64,000 nt of DNA from Planoprotostelium fungivorum (Eukaryota; Evosea; Variosea; Cavosteliida; Cavosteliaceae): contig MDYQ01000002.1 of the NCBI GenBank assembly GCA_003024175.1, positions 248,001 to 312,000 on the forward strand, in the 5' to 3' direction. Below are positions 42,173-42,940 of this stretch, piece after piece. Both the position numbers and the translations under genes were made by a program. Position 1 is the stretch's first letter, and each line of letters starts with the position of its first letter. Under the pieces are notes generated by a model. That model was not told where the DNA came from, searched no databases, and was given only the letters and a program-made list of their open reading frames with translations.

Positions 42173-42225
42173 GATGCGCGCGCTAAAAATTTTCATTTTT
42201 CAAAAAGGTTCCGGAGGCGCGCATC
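42173..42225. other. Inverted repeat, 9-bp arms
   Basis: GATGCGCGC (42173-42181) and GCGCGCATC (42217-42225) are exact reverse complements around a 35-nt A/T-rich loop. It lies 218 bp past the ankyrin gene stop. Could be an RNA 3' end structure or part of an RNA gene; nothing nearby decides. Confidence 0.45.
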
Positions 42226-42572
42226 AAGGCCAGCCCAACCGCCAATGGTCCTTTCTCTTACAACTCTTATCGGCTTGGTGTAAGGTAAAAGCAGTTGGGT
42301 ATGCTTACATGTCCCTCACATACTTTTCTCTTCGAGATAGCACTTCCATTTTTCACCATATCTTCCTCCTCAGACCCGCAGACCCCTCCGACCGATGAGT
42401 AACACCTCTTGACCCCTCAATTCTCTTCTCTTCTTCAAATCAGATCCACATGGCAAATCGATTATCATCTCGATAGCATGTCTATGCACTGACCTTCTCA
42501 AGTGTCTAGAGCATTCAACTAACGCTAGCCCAGGTGTTTCAGGGCCCTAATCAAGGCGGACGGTTGTTATTA

Positions 42573-42583
42573 AAAACCCACAA
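42573..42583 (+). promoter_or_regulatory. DUSE-type upstream element of the U2 gene
   Basis: The sequence AAAACCCACAA fits the Dictyostelium upstream sequence element A(A/T)(A/T)(A/T)CCCA(C/T)AA. It ends 53 and starts 63 bases before the U2 5' end at 42636, the spacing known for Dictyostelium snRNA and small RNA genes. It is probably the snRNA promoter core. Confidence 0.75.
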
Positions 42584-42635
42584 TTTTTCCCGGACTACTT
42601 AACGGCTAGTTGACCCCGCGGGCACCCCAGGAAGC

Positions 42636-42897
42636 ATCTTCTCGGCTTTTTAAAGCTTAGATCAAGGTGGGCCGCAAATCCTCTTCATCACATCACATCA
42701 TCATCACTCATCTTCATTTCTGACACGAAAACAGTGTAGTATCTGTTCTTATCAGTTTAGTCGACTGATAGCCCTGGGTACTCCAGGGCATCCGACTAAA
42801 TTAATTTTTCTCTCGGGTGAGAGGATCAACACCGGAGCTTGCGAAGGTGCCTCTTACACGGATGAATTCAGCATTGCACTGAAGCTGACTTTCGTCC
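42636..42897 (+). ncRNA. U2 spliceosomal snRNA, with an internal intron
   Basis: Two exons, 42636-42666 and 42735-42897, make a mature RNA of about 194 nt. The 5' end ATCTTCTCGGC... (U2: AUCGCUUCUCGGC) forms stem I and ends GATCAAG. Exon 2 starts TGTAGTATCTGTTCTTATCA, containing the branch-site-pairing GUAGUA (42736-42741). Stem IIa is TATCAGT/ACTGATA (42750-42756 with 42764-42770), and its loop TTAGTCG pairs with CGACTAA (42793-42799). Stem IIb is GCCCTGG/CCAGGGC. The Sm site is AATTTTTC (42803-42810). A hairpin CTCTC-GGGT-GAGAG follows. Stem IV has GGATGAA/TTCGTCC outside and TTCAG/CTGAA inside, around loop CATTGCA (U2B''-binding loop in human: AUUGCAGU). The 3' end is estimated. U2 pairs with intron branch sites in the spliceosome. 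A DUSE lies upstream. Confidence 0.93.
42667..42734 (+). other. Spliceosomal-type intron inside the U2 gene
   Basis: The 68-nt insert starts GTGGGC, ends GAAAACAG, and has a possible branch site TTCTGAC 14-20 nt before its end. Its removal joins ATCAAG to TGTAGTATC, the near-invariant U2 sequence, with no base lost or gained. Its length matches the protein-gene introns in this window. The inside is TCATCACATCACATC-like, the same low-complexity sequence seen in neighbouring introns. Confidence 0.88.
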
Positions 42898-42940
42898 ACC
42901 GTTCAAATAATCAAAAGATACAAAAACGTAAGATAATCGT

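Follow-up and report, generated by a model that had tools for sequence, protein, structure and literature searches.

A U2 snRNA gene with a probable spliceosomal intron beside its branch-site-pairing region in a probable amoeba

The interrupted U2 gene in the window

The DNA analyzed here (the window) is a stretch of 64,000 nucleotides. When its sequence was read directly, positions 42636-42666 were found to be ATCTTCTCGGCTTTTTAAAGCTTAGATCAAG, which corresponds to U2 exon 1, and from position 42735 onward the sequence reads TGTAGTATCTGTTCTTATCAG, which is the start of U2 exon 2. The two parts are separated by an insert of 68 nt at 42667-42734. The insert begins with GTGGGC and ends with AAAACAG, that is, it has the form GT...AG, and it lies between nucleotides 31 and 32 of U2 in the human numbering. 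The features of the locus are listed below. In the list, class B means the interrupted U2 genes of the assembly and class A the uninterrupted ones.

42519-42533, forward strand: CTAACGCTAGCCCAG, conserved upstream at -117 and similar either to a branch site followed by a 3' splice site or to a pair of transcription-factor sites
42577-42584, forward strand: PSE-like snRNA promoter element CCCACAAT, in which the core CCACAAT begins at -58 relative to U2 position 1
42636-42666, forward strand: U2 exon 1 (stem-loop I to ATCAAG), read from the sequence; identical in 9/9 class B genes, the joint being uninterrupted in 6/6 class A genes
42667-42734, forward strand: putative 68-nt intron GTGGGC...ACAG; GT (8/9) or GC (1/9) ... 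AG across class B
42720-42724, forward strand: branch-site motif CTGAC, in which 42723 would be the branch A and lies 11 nt ahead of the last base of the intron; the 7 distinct inserts that represent 9/9 class B copies all have CTRAY at this distance
42735-42904, forward strand: U2 exon 2, with an approximate 3' end, comprising the GUAGUA branch-pairing region, stems IIa/IIb, the Sm site, and stems III and IV; RF00004 match, 4/170 columns variable in 8 complete class B copies
42803-42809, forward strand: Sm-site-like AATTTTT, which we take to be the Sm site; aligned with the AUUUUU positions of RF00004
42913-42918, forward strand: 3'-box-like AAAAGA downstream of the U2 end

Only one Rfam family, RF00004 (U2), exceeded its gathering score in the window. 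The match covered 42703-42904 with 87.5 bits (E 6.1e-16), the gathering cut-off being 46 bits. This match begins within the insert, because the first 30 or so positions of the model were aligned to intron sequence while the real 5' domain lies further upstream. The direct reading and the RF00004 match together confirmed an earlier note on this DNA, which had claimed a U2 gene split by a 68-nt GT...AG insert. The note had placed the gene at 42636-42897. The end differs, as the RF00004 match reaches 42904; from the DNA the end of exon 2 is approximate.

We also made a sequence profile from the six uninterrupted U2 genes of this genome. This class A profile matched the window gene lacking 42667-42734 as a single piece with 139.9 bits. 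With the insert in place, the same profile gave two matches, of 110.5 and 14.4 bits.

Two classes of U2 gene and what varies in them

The assembly that we searched consists of 471 contigs and 36.9 Mb. With Rfam, 15 U2 places were found among the best 46 of 645 first-look candidates, which were the ones scored. The RF00004 cut-off was exceeded at 14 of them, and the fifteenth is interrupted by an N. A search for the core pattern GTGTAGTATCTGTTCT...ATCAG gave 15 exact matches, which were the same 15 places, and all of them contain the GUAGUA branch-pairing core in GUGUAGUAUCUGUUCU. When a 28-nt piece of exon 1 was searched with three mismatches permitted, nine places were obtained, all with zero mismatches, and the control with the backwards pattern gave none.

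These nine places constitute class B. Each has the full 31-nt exon 1, followed at the same position by an insert of 65-69 nt, and none of the nine lacks the insert. They lie on contigs C90 (the window), C94, C120, C451 and C23, with four more on C387, one of which is cut by an assembly N. The other six of the 15 places constitute class A and have no insert: C27 carries three of them, C123 two and C234 one. The search for intron-free U2 copies that had been suggested earlier thus yielded six. The identity between the classes is 72-79%, the value of 72% being that of the C234 copy. The 23 nt that span the joint of the joined window gene (AGATCAAG/TGTAGTATCTGTTCT, the slash marking the joint) are identical in 6/6 class A genes. 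Thus, class A shows the predicted joint within one genome. Taken with the 139.9-bit match in one piece, this bears out the claim that removal of the insert restores the U2 sequence.

The spacing UGUUCUUAUCAG is present in class B and in the Rfam consensus, whereas class A has UGUUCUAUAUCAG, that is, one additional base between the branch region and stem IIa. When stem III was compared between the classes, 8/8 pairs held in one of the C27 copies (A_C27a), some of them through changes on one or both sides. In the C234 copy 4/8 pairs fail, three of them at gaps. Because the alignment slips register in stems IIa and IIb, we gave this stem comparison no weight.

At C387:110608-111709, two class B copies stand in tandem, the first of them broken off at a single N. 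From this N to the second copy there are 154 bases that match window positions 42482-42635 exactly, which points to a recent duplication or else to a chimeric assembly.

The sequence CCAYAAT (CCACAAA in one U4 copy) was found at -56 to -63 at 31/31 places, namely 15 U2, 6 U1, 3 U4, 6 U5 and 1 U6. The single U6 in this count leaves out an altered second U6 copy and a U6 fragment. The element is also present at -58 of the U12 gene, and the background of CCAYAAT in the window is 0.055 per strand-kb. Both U2 classes therefore carry the promoter element of the genome's other snRNA genes. On the 3' side, AAAAGA lies 8-9 nt past the assumed U2 end in 8/8 complete class B genes and in 5/6 class A genes (the sixth has GAAAGA); it also follows 11 of the 15 U1, U4 and U5 genes and is absent after U6.

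We looked for inserts in these other snRNA genes as well. The gene counts obtained with Rfam are lower bounds, because 41-47 first-look candidates were scored per family. No insert was found in at least six U1, at least three U4 and at least six U5 genes or in the intact U6 gene; each match was unbroken, had roughly the length of its model and began with the expected 5' motif. For U6, where the best 47 of 3290 candidates were scored, there is at least one intact gene (C74:56400-56602) with the altered second copy directly after it, and the fragment is on contig C448.

Since the two classes are just 72-79% identical and no contig has both of them, they might come from two mixed organisms, such as an amoeba together with a yeast (e.g., Rhodotorula) on which it fed. 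Against such contamination, the assembly has a single Prp8 match, and five of the six U5 matches are identical, with a single-base difference in the sixth; these two findings make a mixture of two eukaryotes unlikely. Moreover, the promoter element is at an equal distance in both classes, as in U1, U4 and U5, and the GC content of the flanks (about 3 kb) is alike, being 0.448-0.498 for five class A loci (C234 was left out) and 0.453-0.480 for class B. The presence of a U12 gene also disfavors a basidiomycete or ascomycete source, because the Ascomycota and Basidiomycota are mostly without minor snRNAs according to PMC10639083. We rejected a mixed origin on the single Prp8 match, the uniform U5 and the common promoter element, and consider it extremely unlikely. 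As to the source, the actin has its best PDB matches in the chains 4efh, 3chw and 1nlv, which are actins of Acanthamoeba and Dictyostelium, and an amoeba with U12 would agree with Protostelium aurantium; the species is probably this one or a relative. A search with the protein of a window gene yielded two JGI proteins of 40-41% identity.

In order to describe where class B varies, we counted the variable columns over its eight complete copies. The exons had 4 variable columns of 201 (0/31 in exon 1 and 4/170 in exon 2), and the insert had 33 of 58 ungapped columns. Just upstream of the genes 51/84 columns were variable, and just downstream 34/60. For exons versus insert the Fisher test gave p ~1e-21, a value that is descriptive, since the test takes the columns to be independent of one another and the copies have a common ancestry. 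All nine copies have the same exon 1. In contrast, the lowest pairwise identity of the inserts is 0.377, and what is kept within the drifting inserts is the splice signals and a CATCATCATCA stretch. The near-invariance of the exons beside the variable insert and upstream columns indicates that the joined class B RNA is under selection.

The variants of exon 2 are out of step with the intron types, as the C451 and C23 copies have one intron type and different exon 2 sequences. Some gene conversion among the class B copies is therefore likely, and this slightly weakens a purely selective reading. Conversion that was confined to the 31 nt of exon 1 amid diverged neighbors would be, however, a poor explanation of the perfect identity.

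These data bear on whether the class B genes are dead, that is, U2 pseudogenes with an insertion, with class A as the sole source of U2. The six intron-free genes could indeed suffice, and an assembly gap interrupts one of the class B copies. Nevertheless, exon 1 is identical in all nine copies while more than 50% of the ungapped columns are variable in the intron and in the flanks (eight copies), and the decay of exons at the pace of their flanks that marks a U2 pseudogene was not found in these copies. In addition, class B has retained the promoter and 3' elements, and it is class B, not class A, that has the UGUUCUUAUCAG spacing of the Rfam consensus. We consider it very unlikely that class B is dead. 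The earlier note held that an intron-free U2 gene elsewhere, combined with a dead copy at this locus, would speak against its reading. The former exists (6/15 places), but the latter is contradicted by frozen exons amid diverged introns and flanks.

The same comparison bears on a second possibility, namely that the insert stays in the U2 RNA and forms an expansion segment there. A retained insert would separate the U2/U6 helix I strand from the branch-site loop. Its sequence would also hardly be expected to drift as far as it does apart from the splice signals and the stretch mentioned above, and class A is continuous at the joint. Retention is exceedingly improbable.

Splice signals of the inserts

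All nine class B inserts end with AG, and they begin with GT in eight copies and with GC in one. The 5' ends are GTGGGC, GTACGG, GTAGGG, GTAGGC and GCACGC. The branch motif is CTGAC or CTAAT, with its A exactly 11 nt from the end, in the seven distinct inserts representing 9/9 copies. In the window, a CTRAY at this distance is found at 25 of 2934 YAG sites.

For comparison, we inferred coding introns from 15 HSP70-family regions. Sixty-six introns were predicted, eight were dropped, and 56 distinct ones were kept. These have a 5' consensus of GTGAGT and a median length of 46 nt. YTRAY was found 5-40 nt from the 3' end in 26 of the 56, versus 13.8 +/- 3.0 in shuffled sequences. With 26 of 56, the motif is not a strict rule in this genome. 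Among the 26 that have it, the distance peaks at 11 nt, and CTGAC is the commonest form.

The U2 introns, at 65-69 nt, fall in the upper part of the coding length range, 60 nt or more being found in 11/56 coding introns. Relative to the coding introns, their 5' sites ranked between the 0th and the 34th percentile, so that they are weaker than most and speak against a plain match, as does the GC start of one copy. A at +4 was present in 0/7 distinct U2 introns versus 46/56 coding introns, and G at +5 was present in 7/7. The 3' site of the C94 insert scored below that of every inferred coding intron.

We considered whether the minor (U12) spliceosome removes the intron, since its use would spare any need for U2. 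The 5' motif of U12-type introns is RTATCCTT. The 5' ends of the inserts match it at 3 to 5 of 8 positions, on which ground we rejected removal by the minor spliceosome; the branch motifs CTGAC and CTAAT also argue against it, CTGAC being the one that is commonest in the coding introns. On the other hand, a U12 gene is present in the genome, and in PMC10639083 an amoeba that may be the present one is reported with 265 minor introns. The name Protostelium aurantium corresponds to Planoprotostelium fungivorum in the NCBI listing. Removal of this intron by the minor spliceosome is extremely unlikely.

Dispersal of the introner type was also looked for. A DNA-similarity search of the assembly with the insert gave six matches, all of them in class B U2 genes. 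Because the inserts of C94, C23 and C451 were missed too, this search excludes only a close family. An introner origin was set aside, as the insert matched class B U2 loci only in a search that was blind to the three most diverged inserts.

As a separate observation, 4 of 6 U1 genes start with ATACTCACC, not with ATACTTACC, and such a start is predicted to pair with GGTGAGTAT. Among the inferred coding introns, the 5' splice site seen most often is GTGAG.

Proposed processing, known introns in RNA genes, and upstream elements

From these comparisons, the locus very probably holds a working U2 snRNA gene with a short U2-type intron that is excised by the major spliceosome. The earlier reading of the insert as a U2-type spliceosomal intron is well supported by the comparative evidence. 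We infer from the DNA that the class B genes are transcribed and spliced and that their product is incorporated into snRNPs.

The proposed course of events is as follows. A class B primary transcript would be made from the snRNA-type promoter, with the intron one base before GUAGUA. The major spliceosome would then excise the intron in the usual two steps, using the 5' GU, the branch A (42723 in the window) and the 3' AG. By this excision, both the strand for U2/U6 helix I and the loop that recognizes the branch site would be restored, along with the continuity that is seen in class A. The helix I strand and the branch-site loop must act together in U2. The unspliced precursor, in which they are 68 nt apart, should therefore not work as U2.

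For this splicing, U2 would be supplied by class A, with its six intron-free genes, and by class B U2 made earlier. It had been pointed out in the earlier note that the spliceosome would need U2 to make U2. That holds for class B, which would need U2; a strict circularity does not hold, as 6 of the 15 places are intron-free. That is, the circularity is not absolute, because class A, which lacks the insert, could supply the U2 for splicing class B. The paradox would thus become a bootstrapping dependence, in which class B U2 requires U2, but not class B U2. As the genome has nine U2 genes with the intron and six without it, this question can be tested, both for the source of bulk U2 and for the dependence of class B on splicing capacity.

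A bolder speculation, to which we give rather little credence, is that the supply of U2 has two tiers. Class A would seed the spliceosome, and the more numerous class B genes would yield U2 only if splicing already runs. Through the weak 5' splice sites of class B, the bulk output of U2 would become a self-reinforcing readout of spliceosome capacity, and a difference in role or life stage between the two U2 isoforms could follow.

An mRNA-type intron in the U2 gene of Rhodotorula hasegawae was described by Takahashi et al. (1993, Mol Cell Biol 13:5613; cited in PMC2586383), and, as cited there, that gene is like the present one in being a U2 snRNA gene with an mRNA-type intron. This kind of intron is therefore not new, as it has been in print since 1993. 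The earlier note had named its fungal precedents in general terms; this one, in U2, is close. The present case differs from R. hasegawae in that the source is a probable amoeba, that there are nine copies with diverged introns, and that an intron-free U2 class is also present. The R. hasegawae intron is reportedly also in a conserved region near the branch-site recognition sequence. One proposal for how snRNAs acquire introns is erroneous reverse splicing onto RNAs of the spliceosome itself. If the Rhodotorula intron is at or near the same spot, there would be two independent gains beside the catalytic core, which would support an origin by reverse splicing.

The introns in U6 genes, which are found in fission yeast and also in other yeasts, lie near functionally central nucleotides. 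As cited in PMC10484740, they were described as mRNA-type introns by Tani and Ohshima (1989, for fission yeast, and 1991), and in that description they resemble the present case in being spliceosomal introns inside a spliceosomal RNA gene. They differ in that the gene is U6, not U2, is a Pol III gene, and belongs to fungi; the intact U6 gene found here is without an insert. Introns are also present in the U3 snoRNA genes of budding yeast. Spliceosomal introns are reported in fungal rDNA as well, and both of these are, like the present one, spliceosomal introns in non-coding RNA genes. Because the products of the U3 and rDNA genes act outside the spliceosome, no feedback on splicing arises from their introns.

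In the open-licence literature (titles and abstract openings, among the matches listed), we found no report of an intron in an amoebozoan snRNA gene. As far as we searched, what appears to be new is the lineage, the nine-copy intron-bearing class with strong comparative evidence for removal of the intron, and the coexisting intron-free class. Among the matches listed, this would be a case outside fungi in which the spliceosome processes its own U2, and in which the processing touches the branch-site recognition loop.

Finally, several elements were noticed upstream of the class B genes. CTAAY...CAGG is present at -107 to -118 in 9/9 class B genes. It was found near that position in 0/6 class A genes, and among 17 other snRNA loci there was one loose match, in a U5 gene at -104. 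The spacing within this element is about the same 11 nt as that from the branch site to the 3' splice site. A GTAAG-like 5' site is present near -237 in 5 of 7 aligned class B copies, the window copy having GTAACA at 42399. The CTAAY...CAGG element could belong to an upstream intron of a longer precursor, or could be merely a pair of transcription-factor sites; it is perhaps outside the gene proper. Further upstream, an inverted repeat, GATGCGCGC...GCGCGCATC, surrounds AAAATTTTCATTTTTCAAAAAGG at about 42173-42225 of the window. It is located near the upstream edge of a unit of about 0.7-0.9 kb that is common to the class B U2 loci.
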